A stretch of 64,000 nucleotides of DNA from Gemmataceae bacterium (GTDB lineage: Bacteria; Planctomycetota; Planctomycetia; Gemmatales; Gemmataceae), in NCBI GenBank assembly GCA_901538445.1, contig LR594584.1, forward strand, positions 3,945,051-4,009,050, written 5' to 3'. The translations under genes and the position numbers were made by a program. Under the pieces are notes generated by a model, which was not told the origin of the DNA, searched no databases, and was given only the letters and a program-made list of their open reading frames with translations. How positions within the stretch are numbered: the stretch's first letter is position 1; the number at the start of each line of letters is the position of its first letter. Shown here piece after piece: positions 25,453-52,828 of this stretch.

Positions 25453-27540
25453 ATGCCGAAACCACTCACGCGCCGCCAGTGGCTCGCGGCGACCGCCGCG
25501 TCGCCGCTCGCCCTCCAACTCCCCGCACCGGCACCCGCCGGGCAAGCGCCGCAAGCCCCGGCCACACTCCCGCCCCTGAACCGCTTCCCGCGGATGGTGC
25601 AGGAATTCTACGTCGAGCAGGTGCGGGCCGCCGAGAAGAAGGGGGCCGAGCTCCGGGCGGCGCTCAAGACGAAGGCCGACGCCACCACTTACGTCGCGGA
25701 CGTGCGCGAGAAAATCGCCAAGTGCTTCGGCCCGTTCCCCGCCAAGACGCCGCTCAACGCGAAGGTCACCGGCACGCTCGACCGCGACGCCTACACCGTC
25801 GAGAAGGTCGTCTTCGAGAGCCGCCCGCAGTTCTTTGTCACCGCGAACCTCTACCTCCCGAAGGGCGCGAAGGGACCGCGGCCGGGGGTCGTCGGCTCGT
25901 GCGGGCACTCCGACGACGGCAAGGCGGCCCCGGCGTACCAATCCTTTGCTCAGGGGCTCGCGAGACTGGGGTACGTGTGCCTCATCTTCGACCCGATCGG
26001 CCAGGGGGAGCGGTCGCAGTACCCGCACGTCGAGAAGCCGGACCGCCCGCGGCTCGGCGTCGGCGAGCACCTCCTCGCCGGGAACCAGCAGTTCCTCGTC
26101 GGCGAGTTCTTCGGGAGCTGGCGGGCGTGGGACGGCATCCGCGCCCTCGACTACCTGCTCTCGCGCCCGGAGGTGGACCCGAAGCACGTCGGCATCACCG
26201 GAAACTCCGGCGGCGGCACGATGACGACTTGGCTGTGCGGGCTCGACCAGCGTTGGACGATGGCCGCTCCGAGTTGCTTCGTCACCACGTTCCGCCGCAA
26301 CCTGGAGAACGAACTCCCGGCCGACACCGAACAGTGCCCCCCGCACTGCCTCGCGCTCGGGCTCGACCACGCCGACTTCCTCGCCGCAATGGCCCCGAAA
26401 CCGGTCGCGATCCTCGCCCAGGAACGCGACTTCTTCGACGTCCGCGGCTCGGAGGAAGCGTACCGGCGGCTCAAGCACCTGTACGGATTGCTCGGTGCCG
26501 AGGAGAACGTGAAACTGCACATCGGCCCGCAGGGCCACGGCTACAGCGTCGAGAACCGCGAGGCAATGTACCAGTGGTTCAACAAGGCGACCGGACTCTC
26601 CGACGCGAAGACCGAACCGAAGCTGGTAATTGAGAAAGAAGCCGACTTGTGGGCCGCCCCGAAGGGACAGGTGAGCGAACTGAAGTCGCGCACCGTGTTC
26701 TCGTTCACAACGCGCCAAGCTCAGGCCGGGCAACTGTGGCGACACTTCTTGACCAGGAACGGGCCGTTTCCTTCCAAGTATTTGAGGGGGGTGCTGGAGG
26801 AGGACTTGAAACTCACACAGCACGAGGGCGCACCAGACTTCCGCATCCTCCGGAACGTCGGCAACCGCAAGTACCCGAGGCCGCACGCGACGGGTTACGC
26901 CGTCGAGACCGAGAAGGGCGTGTTCGCGGTCGTGTACCGCCTCGCGGACGAGGCGCACATCGCCCGCCCGCCCAGGACCGACGCGCCGGCGATCCTGTAC
27001 GTCTCGCACCACAGCGCTGACGCGGAACTGCGTGACGAACCGCTCCTCGCGGAAATGATCAAAGCTGAGCCGAAGGCGGTGTTCTACGCGATGGACGTGC
27101 GGGGCGTCGGCGAGTCGCGGCCGGACACCTGCGGGGGCACGAACCAGTTCCTCACTCCGTACGGCAGCGACTACTTCTACGCGATCCACGGCATCATGCT
27201 CGACCGGCCGTACGTGGGGCAGAAGACGCTCGACGTGCTCCGCGTGCTGGCGTGGCTCACCGACATCGGCCACAAGGAAATACACCTCGTCGCGAAGGGG
27301 TGGGGCGCGATCCCGGCCACGTTCGCGGCCGTGATCTCGGACGCGGTGAAGCAGGTGACGCTCAAGAACTCGCTGACGAGTTATCGCGACGTGGCGATGA
27401 CCGAAACGTACAACTGGCCGCTTTCATCGTTCGTGCCCGGCGTGCTGTCCGCGTTCGACCTGCCCGATTGCTACAAAGTGTTGGAGGCGAAGGGCTTGAA
27501 CCAGATCGAACCCGTTGGGGCAAACGGGAAGATGCCGTGA
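25453..27540 (+). CDS. Secreted alpha/beta hydrolase, acetyl-xylan-esterase-like
   Basis: 695 residues. The N-terminus MPKPLTRRQWLAATAASPLA has a Tat-like twin-arginine and a hydrophobic stretch. The first domain (about 100-400) is a dienelactone-hydrolase/AXE1-type alpha/beta hydrolase: GVVGSCGHSDDGK, IFDPIGQGERSQY, the nucleophile elbow GITGNSGGGT, an acid near QERDFFDVRG and a histidine in GPQGHGYS. The second half (about 430-695) looks like a further, probably degenerate hydrolase-type domain (VSHHSADAEL, AMDVRGVGESRP). It likely removes acyl groups from polysaccharides outside the cytoplasm. The array of 20-bp repeats follows shortly after its stop. Confidence 0.75.
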   Translation: MPKPLTRRQWLAATAASPLALQLPAPAPAGQAPQAPATLPPLNRFPRMVQEFYVEQVRAAEKKGAELRAALKTKADATTYVADVREKIAKCFGPFPAKTPLNAKVTGTLDRDAYTVEKVVFESRPQFFVTANLYLPKGAKGPRPGVVGSCGHSDDGKAAPAYQSFAQGLARLGYVCLIFDPIGQGERSQYPHVEKPDRPRLGVGEHLLAGNQQFLVGEFFGSWRAWDGIRALDYLLSRPEVDPKHVGITGNSGGGTMTTWLCGLDQRWTMAAPSCFVTTFRRNLENELPADTEQCPPHCLALGLDHADFLAAMAPKPVAILAQERDFFDVRGSEEAYRRLKHLYGLLGAEENVKLHIGPQGHGYSVENREAMYQWFNKATGLSDAKTEPKLVIEKEADLWAAPKGQVSELKSRTVFSFTTRQAQAGQLWRHFLTRNGPFPSKYLRGVLEEDLKLTQHEGAPDFRILRNVGNRKYPRPHATGYAVETEKGVFAVVYRLADEAHIARPPRTDAPAILYVSHHSADAELRDEPLLAEMIKAEPKAVFYAMDVRGVGESRPDTCGGTNQFLTPYGSDYFYAIHGIMLDRPYVGQKTLDVLRVLAWLTDIGHKEIHLVAKGWGAIPATFAAVISDAVKQVTLKNSLTSYRDVAMTETYNWPLSSFVPGVLSAFDLPDCYKVLEAKGLNQIEPVGANGKMP

Positions 27541-27618
27541 CGATCCGCGATCAATCCGGGCAGCATGTTGAGGCCCGACACGAAAAACATCTCAACCGCT
27601 TCAGCTTTTCCACGGTTG

Positions 27619-27740
27619 GTTCTGGAGAAGTCGGGTTGGTTCTGAGGAGTTGGACCTTGATTCTGGGGCATTCCGTCTCATTCTGAGGCAATCCGTCTCA
27701 TTAGCGAGTCTCTGAAGAGTTTTCGTTGATTCTGGAGACC
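27619..27740 (+). repeat. Intergenic array of ~20-bp-period repeats (TTCTGAGGAGTT family), copy A
   Basis: Degenerate copies of TTCTG(A/G)(G/A)G(A/C).. begin at 27620, 27640, 27661, 27681, about 27710 and 27730, spaced 20, 21, 20, 29 and 20 bases. The clearest units read TTCTGAGGAGTTGG, TTCTGGGGCATTCCGTCTCA and TTCTGAGGCAATCCGTCTCA, and the array ends ATTCTGGAGACC. The same terminal unit and period occur in opposite orientation at 52664-52736. The array lies between the hydrolase stop and the GNAT gene end. The period is not a multiple of three, so it is not coding. Confidence 0.7.
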
Positions 27741-27809
27741 CCACCCCCCGAATCGGCCAGAACCATTTTCGACCCGAGGCACCCGGCGTGAGCAGCCCCC
27801 TCACACCCA

Positions 27810-28433
27810 TTATACCACAGGAGCGACCGGGAGCGGCTTCCGTACAAGTTCGTAGTGCCGCGTTCCGGCCGGGATCTCGCTCTCGCCGGCCAGTTCGAAC
27901 CCGAGCTTCTTGTAGATCTCGACGTTCGCCGGTGTCATCGTCTCGAGGTACACGGGCACCTTGTGGCGGTCGGCGGCCGCGAACATCGGCGTGAACAAGG
28001 CCCGCGTCAGCCCCTTGCGCTGCATGTCGGGCCGCACGCCGAGGAGCGGGACGTACCAGTGCGGCCCGCCGCAGTGCTTCACGCGGGCGAGGTCGAACCC
28101 CCGCTCCAGCTCGAACAGCAGCCGGCTCCCACTCCAACCATAAGTCGCAAGGAGCCCGAGCCCGCCGGACAGGAAGGCGGTCCACCGGCCCGGCCACTCC
28201 TGTCCCGGGAGCCACGTACACATCACCGCGGCCCTGTCCGGCGTGGCGAACACGCCCTCGCACCGCACCGACACGCGGAACACATACCGGCAGAACACCT
28301 CGACGGCCTTCGACCGCTTCGCCGCGTCCGGGCACAGCAGCGTGAATAGCGGGTACTCGGCGAACGCCGCCGCGAGGGTCGCGACGGCCGCGGGCTCGTC
28401 GCCGGGGGTCAGTTGGTCGATGGTCATACACAT
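27810..28433 (-). CDS. GNAT-family N-acetyltransferase
   Basis: 207 residues from ATG 28433 (MCMTIDQLTPGDEPAAVATL); a second ATG two codons later is equally possible. The acetyl-CoA-binding motif A is clear: WYVPLLGVRPDMQRKGLTRA, followed by VPVYLETMTPANVEIYKKLG, where the Asn and Tyr are typical of the C-terminal motif B. It transfers acetyl from acetyl-CoA to an unknown amine. It starts 10 nt after the stop of the oxidoreductase gene on the same strand, so the two are probably cotranscribed. A CACCCATTATACCACAGG patch overlaps its end. Confidence 0.85.
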   Translation of the reverse strand: MCMTIDQLTPGDEPAAVATLAAAFAEYPLFTLLCPDAAKRSKAVEVFCRYVFRVSVRCEGVFATPDRAAVMCTWLPGQEWPGRWTAFLSGGLGLLATYGWSGSRLLFELERGFDLARVKHCGGPHWYVPLLGVRPDMQRKGLTRALFTPMFAAADRHKVPVYLETMTPANVEIYKKLGFELAGESEIPAGTRHYELVRKPLPVAPVV

Positions 28434-28443
28434 TACCGGAAGC

Positions 28444-30690
28444 TCACGCCGTCCGGGTCGCCTCCACTTCCACAAGGTTGTCGAAGAACGTTGCGCCGCC
28501 GCCCAGGTCGGTCGGTGCGGTGCTGGTCGTGGTGTTGCAGTTCGCGCCGTCGTCGGTCCACTTCCGCCACCACAGCCCGAGCGACACCACCACCCCCGGC
28601 TTCACGGTCTCGCCGACCACCGCACGCGCCCGGAACCGCCCGCGGCCGTTGTAAACGCTCACCGTCGCGCCGTCGGCGATGCCGCGCTTCGCGGCGTCGA
28701 CCGGGTGGATCTCCAGCGTGCGCTCCCCTGCCTCGCGGCGGGCGTGGTCCAGATTGGCGAACGTCGAGTTCAAGAACGACGGGGCAGGCGGGGTCAACAA
28801 CTGCAACGGGTACTTCGCCGCCAGTTCGGGCTGGGTCTGCGGGTCCTCGTGCGGGGGCACGTAGTGTGGGAGCGGGTCGCGGCCGGCCCGCCCCTCGCGC
28901 TCCGAGTACAGTTCGCACTTGCCGGATGGCGTCGGGAACTTCCCTTCGGCAAACGGCGCCCACCCCCGCGGCACGTTGAACCGCACCGGCCCGGCCTTGG
29001 TCGCCTCCAGCGTGATGCCCGCGAGCGCCGGGTGCTGGGTCTGGCCCTCGCCCCTTGCGGGACAGGGTGGCGGCGCTTCGCCGACGGGTGAGGGGTGCGC
29101 CTCACCTGCCCCGTGCGCTTCACCCCTCACCCGGCCGCTCGAAGACTCGCGGCCACCCTCTCCCGCAAGGGGAGAGGGCAAAGACCCACCCATGCACCGC
29201 CGCGCGAGTTCCTCGTCCGTCTCGGCGAACAACTCCGGCTCGAACCCCATCGCCGCGCCGAGCAGCCGGAACACCTCGGTATTCGGCTTCGCCTCGCCGA
29301 GCGGCGCGATCGCCGGGTTGTTGGCCTGCACGTAGAGGTGCCCGTAGGTCGCGTGCAGGTCAAAGTGCTCCAACTGCGTCGTGGCGGGCAGCACGATGTC
29401 GGCGTAGTCGGCCGTGTCGGTCTGAAACTGGTCGTGGACGACCGTGAACAGATCGTCGCGCATCAGTCCCGAGAGCACCCGCGACTGGTCCGGGGCGACT
29501 GCGGCCGGGTTCGAGTTGTACACGAACAGCGCCTTCACCGGGGGCCCCGGGAGTTCGCCGTGCAGCGCTTCGGCGAGCTGGATCATGTTGACCGTGCGGG
29601 TTCCCTTCGGGATCAGGTCCGGGCGCGTGAGGTAGGCGTCGTCGAACGCCGCGACCTTGCTCGTGCTGAGGAACGCGCCGGCCCCGGGGTAGCGCCAGTC
29701 GCCGGTGAGCGCCGGCAGGCACACGATGGTGCGGACCGCGGTGCCGCCGCCGCCGTGCCGCTGGAGGCCGTAGTTGAGCCGGATCAGAGCCGGCCCGCCG
29801 AACAGTTCCCGAGAGCGGGCGTACTCCCGCGCGAACCGCTCGATCACGGCTCCCGACAGGCCGGTGATTTGGGAGACGCGCGAAACCGGGTACTCGCGCA
29901 TCACCCGGTCGCGGAGCGGCCCGGCCCCGACGCAGTGGTTGTTCAGGTAGTCGTCGTCCTGCCAGCCCTCGCGCCAGATGACGTGCATGACGCCGAGCGC
30001 CAGCGCCCCGTCGGTGCCGGGCCGAACCGGGAGCCACCAGTCCGACTTCGCGGCCGTCGGCGACTTGTACGGGTCGATGGTGACGATCCGCGCGCCGCGC
30101 TTGCGGGCCTCGTGCTCGATCCGCCAGAAGTGCGTGTTCGTGACGGAGGTGTTCGAGCCCCAGTTCACGATGTACCGGGCGTGGACGGCGTCCTCGGGGT
30201 CGATCACCGCCCGCGTGCCGAGCGTCACGTCGCACCCGGCGGCCCCGGCGGTCGCGCAGATCGTGCGATCGAGCAGGGACGCCCCGAGCCGGTGGAAGAA
30301 CCGCCGGTCGAGGCTGCCGTACATGAGCTTGCCCATCGTGCCGGCGTAGCTGTACGGGAGCACCGCTTGCGGCCCGTGCTCGGACGCCGCGATCGCCCTG
30401 AAGCGGTCGGCGATCTCGCGGACCGCGGCCTCCCAGCTCACGCGCTCGAACCTGCCCTCGCCCTTCTTCCCGACCCGCCGGAGCGGGTGCGCGAGCCGGT
30501 CCGGGTGGTACACGCGGTCGAGGTAGGGGGCGACCTTCTGGCACAGGAACCCGCGGGTGAACGGGTGGTCGCGGTCGCCCCGCAACGCAACGGCCCGCCC
30601 GGTCGCGTCGTCCACTCCGACGACGATGCCGCACGTGTCGGGGCAGTCGTGGGGGCACACGGCCTTCACCGTTCGCAATTCTCGGCGCAT
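28444..30690 (-). CDS. Molybdopterin-dependent oxidoreductase with an in-frame palindromic insertion
   Basis: 748 residues of the DMSO-reductase superfamily. The N-terminal 4Fe-4S cysteines are in VCPHDCPDTCG, with the fourth in RGFLCQK. Molybdopterin segments include WGSNTSVTNTH and VTIDPYKSPTAA. The C-terminal molydopterin-dinucleotide-binding domain starts near 610 (LLTPPAPSFLNSTF) and includes LEIHPVDAAKRGI. No Tat signal is seen, so it is probably cytoplasmic, as in formate-dehydrogenase-like or nitrate-reductase-like proteins. The substrate is unknown. Residues about 504-549, Pro/Gly/Glu-rich with LPSPLAGEGG, are encoded by a nested palindromic DNA element. They interrupt the protein between conserved parts without a frameshift. 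Confidence 0.85.
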   Translation of the reverse strand: MRRELRTVKAVCPHDCPDTCGIVVGVDDATGRAVALRGDRDHPFTRGFLCQKVAPYLDRVYHPDRLAHPLRRVGKKGEGRFERVSWEAAVREIADRFRAIAASEHGPQAVLPYSYAGTMGKLMYGSLDRRFFHRLGASLLDRTICATAGAAGCDVTLGTRAVIDPEDAVHARYIVNWGSNTSVTNTHFWRIEHEARKRGARIVTIDPYKSPTAAKSDWWLPVRPGTDGALALGVMHVIWREGWQDDDYLNNHCVGAGPLRDRVMREYPVSRVSQITGLSGAVIERFAREYARSRELFGGPALIRLNYGLQRHGGGGTAVRTIVCLPALTGDWRYPGAGAFLSTSKVAAFDDAYLTRPDLIPKGTRTVNMIQLAEALHGELPGPPVKALFVYNSNPAAVAPDQSRVLSGLMRDDLFTVVHDQFQTDTADYADIVLPATTQLEHFDLHATYGHLYVQANNPAIAPLGEAKPNTEVFRLLGAAMGFEPELFAETDEELARRCMGGSLPSPLAGEGGRESSSGRVRGEAHGAGEAHPSPVGEAPPPCPARGEGQTQHPALAGITLEATKAGPVRFNVPRGWAPFAEGKFPTPSGKCELYSEREGRAGRDPLPHYVPPHEDPQTQPELAAKYPLQLLTPPAPSFLNSTFANLDHARREAGERTLEIHPVDAAKRGIADGATVSVYNGRGRFRARAVVGETVKPGVVVSLGLWWRKWTDDGANCNTTTSTAPTDLGGGATFFDNLVEVEATRTA
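29044..29179. repeat. Nested palindromic (REP/BIME-like) element inside the oxidoreductase gene
   Basis: The outer arms 29044-29070 and 29153-29179 are inverted repeats matching at 25 of 27 positions. The right arm alone also forms a hairpin (CCCTCTCCCGCAAGGGGAGAGGG has a CTCTCCC..GGGGAGAG stem). Inner arms CGGGTGAGGGGTG (29085-29097) and CACCCCTCACCCG (29121-29133) pair perfectly. The 136-bp unit resembles the palindromic 'CCCTCTCCC-GCAAG-GGGAGAGGG' intergenic repeats common in several high-GC bacteria. Here it lies within a reading frame that stays open. Confidence 0.8.
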
Positions 30691-41816: not shown

Positions 41817-41819
41817 AAA

Positions 41820-41928
41820 GCCGGCGATACCTACTCTCGCGCTGGACGCACTACCATCGGCCCCAACAGTTTCACGGCCGTGTTCGGAATGGGAACGGGT
41901 GTTTCCAGTTGGGTGTGGTCACCGGCAA
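41820..41928 (-). rRNA. rrf: 5S ribosomal RNA
   Basis: On the minus strand the RNA begins near TTGCCGGTGACCACA and ends near GGTATCGCCGGC. The conserved core includes ACACCCGTTCCCATTCCGAA and GTAGTGCGTCCAGCGCGAGA. The terminal GCCGG/CCGGC helix closes the molecule. It follows 23S by about 105 bases and precedes the terminator. The ends are estimated to within a few bases. Confidence 0.93.
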
Positions 41929-42033
41929 GTCGCGTGGCGTCCCGGCCGGCCCGTGTGGCGGGTCGGCGGGGTTGCCGTGTATCTTGGCAACTTGATGAAC
42001 ACGAAGTCGACACGAGCGAGAAGGGGAACAATG

Positions 42034-44795
<2,762 letters not shown>

Positions 44796-44864
44796 ACTGC
44801 TCCCGCCCTCCACCCGTGTCGCCACGCCTGAAGAACGAAAGCCACTTGACTCAGCTAGACTTCC

Positions 44865-44889
44865 CCCGGTCCGCGGGATGCGGACCGGG
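44865..44889 (-). other. Perfect hairpin in the 23S leader
   Basis: CCCGGTCCGC and GCGGACCGGG form a perfect 10-bp stem with a 5-nt loop, about 70 bases upstream of the 23S 5' end in the direction of transcription. It could be a processing or folding element of the precursor. Confidence 0.5.
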
Positions 44890-45038
44890 TCGACGATGCT
44901 GCCCTTCTTCTTTTCTTCTAAGGCTCGTGTCTTGATCGCTACCGCGTGCCCCACGCCGACCGGACCCGGAACCGCTACGCGGCCCCCGACCCGATCACGC
45001 GACGCACGCAATCGCTGATGCAACTTCGTGTTCACCAA

Positions 45039-45052
45039 GTTGTCAAAGAGCT
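45039..45052 (-). promoter_or_regulatory. boxA-like rRNA antitermination site
   Basis: The minus strand reads AGCTCTTTGACAAC, close to the E. coli rrn boxA TGCTCTTTAACAA. Its place between tRNA-Ala and 23S matches the spacer boxA of classical rRNA operons, where NusB/NusE load to prevent premature termination. Confidence 0.6.
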
Positions 45053-45171
45053 GGATAAGCTCAGCTCGCTCTCGCGAACCTCACTCGCCGAACCTATACG
45101 GCCCGGCATCTCGTCTTAAATCACAACCCAAGCCCTTAACAGCTCAGGTGTTGCGATCTTTGGTATCGAGA

Positions 45172-45200
45172 ATCTTAGTGGTGCCACTCCGACCTGTCAA
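45172..45200 (-). promoter_or_regulatory. Possible internal promoter upstream of 23S
   Basis: The minus strand has a perfect TTGACA (complement of 45195-45200), a 17-nt spacer and TAAGAT (complement of 45172-45177), four of six -10 matches. It lies after the tRNAs and would allow 23S-5S transcription independent of them. Confidence 0.4.
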
Positions 45201-45292
45201 CCCGGCGGACAAGATTTTTCTTCTTGCTTGCCACTTTTTCCTTGCAATCCTCATTGAGAACTGCTCGAAGGGTTAACAGCGTCGCACCGGTG

Positions 45293-45365
45293 TGGAGAAG
45301 AGGGGAGTCGAACCCCTGACATCCTGCTTGCAAAGCAGGCGCTCTACCAACTGAGCTACTTCCCC
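45293..45365 (-). tRNA. tRNA-Ala (UGC)
   Basis: The 73-base cloverleaf starts GGGGAAGTAGCTCAGTTGG, with a 7-bp acceptor stem GGGGAAG/CTTCTCC including one G-U. The anticodon stem is CCTGC/GCAGG around TTTGCAA, giving anticodon TGC. The T loop reads GGTTCGACTCC. CCA is not encoded. It sits 32 bases after tRNA-Ile in the transcript. Confidence 0.96.
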
Positions 45366-45397
45366 GAACTCACAGGCCTCGGCAACCGCCAACTGAG

Positions 45398-45471
45398 TGC
45401 GCGTACTTGGATTTGAACCAAGGACCTCGTCGTTATCAGCGACGCGCTCTAGCCAACTGAGCTATACGCGC
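45398..45471 (-). tRNA. tRNA-Ile (GAU)
   Basis: The 74-base cloverleaf starts GCGCGTATAGCTCAGTTGGC, with a perfect 7-bp acceptor stem GCGCGTA/TACGCGC. The anticodon stem is CGTCG/CGACG around CTGATAA, giving anticodon GAT. The T loop reads GGTTCAAATCC. CCA is not encoded. Ile-Ala is the order normally found in the 16S-23S spacer. Confidence 0.96.
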
Positions 45472-52601: not shown

Positions 52602-52663
52602 CCCGAAGATGACCGAATCGAGTTCAGGGCGGGCGCGATGGTTCTGGCGCAAACGGGGGGAGC

Positions 52664-52736
52664 GGTCTCCAGAATGAGCCCGAACTCCCCAGAATGACCC
52701 TCAACTCCTCAGAAGCAACGCCGACTCCTCAGACAC
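52664..52736 (-). repeat. Intergenic array of 20-bp-period repeats (TTCTGAGGAGTT family), copy B
   Basis: AGA(A/C) occurs at 52671, 52691, 52711 and 52731, a perfect 20-base period. The units read TCTCCAGAAT, AACTCCCCAGAAT, AACTCCTCAGAA and GACTCCTCAGAC. On the minus strand this is TTCTGAGGAGTT.. ending ATTCTGGAGACC, the same family, terminal unit and period as 27619-27740 but in the opposite orientation. It lies between the secretin stop and the TPR lipoprotein gene. The related 10-mer CCTCAACTCC recurs at 52699, 52784 and 53724. Confidence 0.75.
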
Positions 52737-52828
52737 AAGAGCCATTTTGGGGCATCCACGCTCAGGTGACACATTAATTCACTCCTCAACTCCGGTTCAG
52801 CCGGCTCAAGAGGGGCCACGGAACGGGA

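Follow-up and report, generated by a model that had tools for sequence, protein, structure and literature searches.

The 20-bp-period array that we followed here is one copy of a family with around 110 copies in its host genome, the array-less sister family being counted in, and we interpret it, with moderate confidence, as a lineage-specific, BOX-like, dispersed non-coding repeat whose units are putative protein-binding sites on DNA. Each element comprises a leader, usually four to six units of 20 bp (fewer or more in some copies) and a closing hairpin. Close neighbours along the chromosome tend to face each other, a long-range order that came as a surprise, as it is unexpected for a dispersed repeat.

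Copies A and B

The window, which is the whole stretch of 64,000 nucleotides that was analysed, lies within contig C3 of a four-contig assembly of 7.86 Mb and 95% completeness. It holds two copies, named A and B, with the following features:

27616-27766, plus strand: copy A, whole element, six units and closing hairpin
27616-27659, plus strand: copy A, units 1 and 2, TTGGTTCTGGAGAAGTCGGG and TTGGTTCTGAGGAGTTGGACC, with spacings of 20 and 21
27660-27709, plus strand: copy A, units 3 and 4, a variant form with the end CCGTCTCA, then the 29-bp step that holds TTAGCGAGT
27710-27729, plus strand: copy A, unit 5, CTCTGAAGAGTTTTCGTTGA
27727-27766, plus strand: copy A, closing hairpin, TGATTCTGG AGACCCCACCCCCCGAATCGG CCAGAACCA T; full module TGATTCTGGAGACCCCACCCCCCGAATCGGCCAGAACCAT
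27767-52638, no strand: stretch between copies A and B, ordinary chromosome outside the element
41819-41926, minus strand: 5S rRNA, between copies A and B
42033-44793, minus strand: 23S rRNA, between copies A and B
52639-52742, minus strand: copy B, the facing partner of copy A, four units (steps of 20, 20 and 20) and closing hairpin
52639-52677, minus strand: copy B, closing hairpin

The TTCTG-type units of copy A start at 27620, 27640, 27661, 27681, 27710 and 27730, which gives exactly the six units and the spacings of 20, 21, 20, 29 and 20 that a preliminary description had read from the letters. The extent proposed there, 27619-27740, stops short of the hairpin in which every copy ends, and copy A has to be extended to around 27766. 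Its closing module finishes with ten bases that, read as reverse complement, give the usual unit start ATGGTTCTGG. The 29-bp step with CATTAGCGAG is also present in five other copies (L085, L101, L139, L140 and L142). Unit variants based on CCGTCTCATTA were found at the same 20-bp step in L103 (near 4000), at 27660-27709 of the window and in L139, and suggest that this spacing accommodates a second unit sequence.

The recurrence in the opposite orientation about 25 kb away, also proposed at the outset, corresponds to copy B, which has the same plan as copy A and lies 24.9 kb from it; both are members of flank-less subfamilies. Two genes converge on copy A, a hydrolase gene (25453-27540, plus strand) and a gene on the minus strand (27810-28475), called acetyltransferase-like from the look of its sequence. 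The interval between the two copies also contains two tRNA genes, which together with the 23S and 5S genes occupy positions 41819-45471; a 16S gene was not found within the window, so that the rRNA operon may be unlinked or split, or a match to the 16S model may have been missed.

The family across the host genome

The genome-wide motif search suggested by the preliminary description gave counts far above chance, with 290 matches to the paired-unit motif against 0 for the reversed-pattern control, and around 100 matches to the closing module TTCTGGAGACCNCNCCCCCC against 3 for the control. A scan with the single degenerate 13-mer, limited to the window, was not significant (17 matches, 13.5 expected). 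Since the closing hairpin served to locate copies, those that have diverged escape the count; 94 array copies were read individually. In these, the 20-bp unit consists of TTCTGRRGAGTT, 5-6 variable bases and TG, the spacers being variable, yet position-specific, and the closing hairpin follows the pattern TGGTTCTGGAG...CCCCC...CCAGAACCAT. A typical copy has a 21-bp first unit, four or five units of TTCTGGAGAGTTNNNNNTGR and the closing hairpin. Terminal inverted repeats, as in MITEs, are present (TGGTTCTGG...CCAGAACCA), although their left arm recurs in every unit. Longer flanks are common to class 1, which has 46 copies, about half of those read.

L139 (C2:1562896-1570915) and L140 (C2:1589320-1597339) have the same orientation, 26 kb apart, and hundreds of bases of their flanks are nearly identical; judged from these flanks, the pair is a recent segmental duplication.

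The early statement that the array is not coding agrees with the position of 93 of the 94 copies outside genes, as predicted by codon-usage calls made in this analysis. Gaps between convergent genes hold 32 of the 94 copies, gaps between divergent genes are under-represented (12 of about 93), and the array lies 3' of a co-directional gene in 60 of 93 copies. No TATAAT-like promoter was found at a fixed place on either strand, such sequences being rare and unpositioned (3-7 per flank set).

Apparent constraint on the unit core and spacing

Among 347 units of twenty bases, there is almost no variation at positions 1-5, 8, 10-12 and 18, a purine stands at positions 6 and 7, and the sequence varies at positions 13-17 and 20. 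Steps of exactly 20 bp make up 347 of 423 overall, and 314 of 330 when first steps are set aside. Adjacent units of one array differ at 0.076 per core site versus 0.614 per spacer site, and gaps per substitution amount to 0.016 in the arrays versus 0.19-0.21 in flanking sequence from the same copies (class 1), a 12-fold difference, although both the core and the gap figures are approximate and lean towards constraint, since the indel alignments are partly anchored by the repeats themselves and the core consensus was used to find the units.

The low core difference and the depletion of gaps make both the core and the 20-bp spacing look constrained. A free spacer of fixed length next to a constrained core is what would be expected of equally spaced sites for a DNA-binding protein, and we infer such sites from this pattern. 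The two-turn spacing is kept far more strictly than the sequence, in line with the idea of a protein reading one face of the DNA, and the binding itself is a prediction. Arrays without function, produced by passive tandem duplication and decaying since, would keep their period only through youth; units within one array are indeed alike and the family is limited to one lineage, as such an origin would have it. This explanation is disfavoured by the contrast between spacer and core (61% versus 8% differences) and by indels 12-fold depleted with respect to the flanks, and it does not account for the facing order described below, so that we consider it improbable.

Folding and a possible role as RNA

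A structured RNA had been offered as the other explanation of the period. When whole arrays were folded and compared with shuffled sequences, the mean z was around 0 on the plus strand and 0.3 on the minus strand, with no excess of structure, and Rfam covariance models gave nothing at the gathering score over the elements. A structured RNA for the entire array was set aside on these two results. Only the closing hairpin stands out, with a mean folding z of -2.7 (plus strand) and -1.9 (minus strand) for the terminal segment over 40 copies.

The element could still act as RNA in a narrower sense, either as a transcription terminator or as a CsrA-type decoy with repeated GGA motifs, which we consider unlikely, though less so than the other rivals of the preferred reading. 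In the terminator reading, the plus-strand hairpin GGUUCUGG...CCAGAACC is followed by AUUUU, and the minus-strand array, C-rich and G-poor, resembles a Rho loading site. Consistent with this, the stable plus-strand hairpin is often followed by T-rich sequence, convergent-gene positions are frequent, and C minus G reaches 0.25 in the minus-strand array, a value matched by only 0.3-0.5% of 100-nt stretches. GGA, the motif that CsrB/RsmZ-type RNAs present in hairpin loops, occurs in 92% of the units, but the folding gives no support for loops around it. Against a role as RNA, whole arrays show no excess of structure and have no match in Rfam. Moreover, the T tract is missing from the array-less S family, the position 3' of a co-directional gene is inconsistent, and neither the strict 20-nt spacing nor the facing pairs would find a reason in an RNA.

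The array-less sister family has 15 intergenic copies (L241-L255) with the same hairpin, its loop being GAGAGGGGTCCCCC, and around 450 bp of non-coding sequence, 82-87% conserved, around or before it. These copies carry TATAAT-like sequences and a CCAAGAT...ATCTTGG stem, gave nothing at the gathering score in Rfam, and may represent either a family of non-coding RNA genes or a mobile element. As the hairpin is shared without the array, it is the common part, and the array is one of two attachments.

Facing pairs along the chromosome

The orientation of neighbouring copies was then compared, with a limit of 25 kb that was set after inspection of the data. Among the first 94 copies, 20 of 26 neighbours within this limit face each other and none face apart; of the 9 close pairs in which a later-found copy takes part, 7 follow the same rule (p 0.0013). 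With all copies, 27 of 35 neighbours face each other, again with none facing apart, a result that 0 of 50,000 strand permutations matched, and when three apparently recent duplicate pairs are left out the ratio is 24 of 32. Distances within facing pairs range from 6.1 to 24.9 kb, the pair of copies A and B being the longest of the set, and no neighbours lie closer than 6 kb, against 9.1 expected (P 0.0002). Beyond 25 kb there is no surplus of facing neighbours. Clustering as such was rejected, since counts of neighbours less than 15 kb apart are close to random, unlike their orientation. Facing pairs include 54 of 112 copies.

A strand bias relative to replication, which had been proposed for analysis, is not present: the strands interleave along the contigs, which rules such a bias out, and the orientation is set in facing pairs. 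The partners of a pair are as dissimilar as random copies (mean percentile 0.56). Pair interiors are ordinary unrelated genes, and no shared cargo or gene function was found inside them. Diverged partners were sought in the 20-kb stretches inward of 20 unpaired copies, where a single hairpin was found, of the sister family; two further unpaired copies have a sister-family partner just past the stretch searched. A comparison of intergenic sequences gave no dominant second repeat family as partner.

Functional pairs are conceivable if an architectural protein binds the oriented arrays and these, acting as oriented boundary sites, enclose domains of 6-25 kb. With a DNA-binding protein sitting on its equally spaced sites, an array would serve as a boundary or anchor a loop in a way that depends on its direction, and would be the bacterial equivalent of convergent boundary sites. 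The facing rule, with its absence of pairs facing apart, the failure of permutations to reproduce it and its persistence in later-found copies, points in this direction, as do the lack of neighbours under 6 kb, the independence of the partners and the ancestral gene order inside L211, the single pair for which both boundaries were compared. However, around half of the copies have no partner facing them within 25 kb, none was found in most of the 20 inward stretches, the interiors have no gene content in common, and the family hardly extends beyond one species, so that we hold this role to be doubtful, at the same level as passive decay.

Distribution and array-free orthologous sites

Among 94 other genomes of the family Gemmataceae (18 congeneric and 76 other), true arrays were found only in G016, which has two. 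The expectation of a feature general to Gemmata-type genomes is not supported by these relatives. In a collection of 84,980 other species genomes, from which the genome of the window is itself absent, only the metagenome bin DS2.012 was positive, with two arrays, and this congeneric bin fits G016. No array was found in the viral contigs scanned.

Three orthologous regions in G016 are array-free, with the gene order kept, and give empty sites of the kind expected for MITEs. At the site of copy A, the hydrolase and acetyltransferase-like genes are around 6 bp apart, as against 269 bp here; the L083 site lacks the array; and in the region of the L211 pair both boundaries and the interior are collinear and the arrays absent. 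These sites imply that arrays came to lie between genes that were neighbours already; their loss from the relatives is a less likely alternative. For the L207 pair, the interior genes are scattered or multi-copy in relatives.

Three other observations were made at these and related loci. In another species, the site orthologous to that of copy A (L194, G019:C81:8800-9400) has a long, near-perfect inverted repeat, CGCCGCTTGCGGCGTAGCGCTC...GAGCGCTACGCCGCAAGCGG, between convergent genes. The L083 site of another species, L199 (G015:C206:900-1300), has intergenic heptamer repeats of the GACTCCTGACCCCTGAC type on both strands. A segment of around 170 bp in a predicted gene (L214:10013-10185) has dozens of matches in every congeneric genome searched and is possibly the N-terminal part of the DUF1559 family.

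The ends of Tn7- and Tn5053-type transposons have TG...CA termini and several binding sites of about 20 bp in direct repeat, and the array may likewise work as iterated protein sites. Each pair could represent the termini of one large transposon or island, the array being bound by a transposase, and several direct repeats of around 20 bp that look like binding sites, TG...CA-type ends, the inward orientation and the spacing of 6-25 kb all fit. Against this, the interior has not moved with the ends: gene order across the ends and inside L211 is unchanged in the array-free relative, and the genes that flank copy A adjoin there. Interiors are unrelated ordinary genes, pair ends are no more similar than random copies, and a target duplication was not seen. 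The large transposon was rejected on synteny and on the random similarity of partners; it is largely refuted, and we regard it as the least probable of the explanations considered.

Discussion

The closest likeness is to the BOX elements of Streptococcus pneumoniae, in which end modules surround a variable tandem array (PMC3049150). Both families have around 100 intergenic copies with boundary modules, variable tandem inner modules and inverted-repeat ends, and both are nearly restricted to one species and a close relative. The likeness is one of modular order; a relation in sequence is not expected, the host phylum being unrelated. Differences are the inner unit of 20 bp, the closing hairpin at one end only and the target duplication, which BOX elements cause and which was not found here; BOX elements also fold as a whole, a fold unsupported for our elements, and are not reported in facing pairs (PMC3049150), whereas ours face each other at 6-25 kb.

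REP, BIME and REPIN sequences (PMC2817692, PMC3733652, PMC3116915) share the short palindrome, the copy number of around 100 and the intergenic location, but here an asymmetric hairpin follows a direct-repeat array and the pairing occurs at 6-25 kb, not in adjacent mosaics. The TAACTGA repeats of Beggiatoaceae (PMC4679880) likewise occur between genes as numerous small groups of direct repeats whose function is unknown; those are heptamers found mostly just upstream of start codons in several phyla, in contrast to the 20-bp units with a hairpin, free of any start-codon position and present in one lineage, described here. REP-type palindromes thus resemble the hairpin and the TAACTGA repeats the array, and neither has the combination. 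A search of open-licence papers gave no description of the family.

In the BOX-like reading that we prefer, each copy combines a leader with a tandem array of 20-bp direct repeats, variable in number, and ends in a closing module that is in inverted repeat with the unit core. Each unit would be the site of a DNA-binding protein, and with one protein per unit, successive proteins would sit nearly on the same face of the DNA. The family may have spread as a non-autonomous mobile element, the evidence for mobility being its distribution and the array-free sites only, and its copies would be tolerated mainly away from promoters. Neither a target-site duplication at either end nor sharp common outer ends were found in the copies read. 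Against this BOX-like reading, facing pairs of mutually dissimilar members are not predicted by simple local transposition. As a first guess, copies may insert in connection with a replication or repair event, on whose two sides the target strands would be mirror images; a passage of PMC6006769 describes some bacterial elements as targeting the lagging-strand template. Facing order between independent partners, with gene order unchanged, could arise from such mirror-image-strand insertion around one event, or could reflect selection for oriented boundaries. In our ranking, the BOX-like repeat with protein-binding units comes first, followed by a role as RNA, then by passive decay and domain borders at one level, and last by transposon ends.

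Dispersed bacterial repeats are usually viewed as selfish elements or as scattered terminators, a view that predicts neither the fixed spacing of a constrained site nor a rule that turns neighbours towards one another and never away. This leaves two readings, one in which an insertion process places copies as mirror-image pairs about some event and one in which oriented arrays serve the cell in organising its chromosome; to our knowledge, neither has been described for a bacterial repeat, and both are testable.
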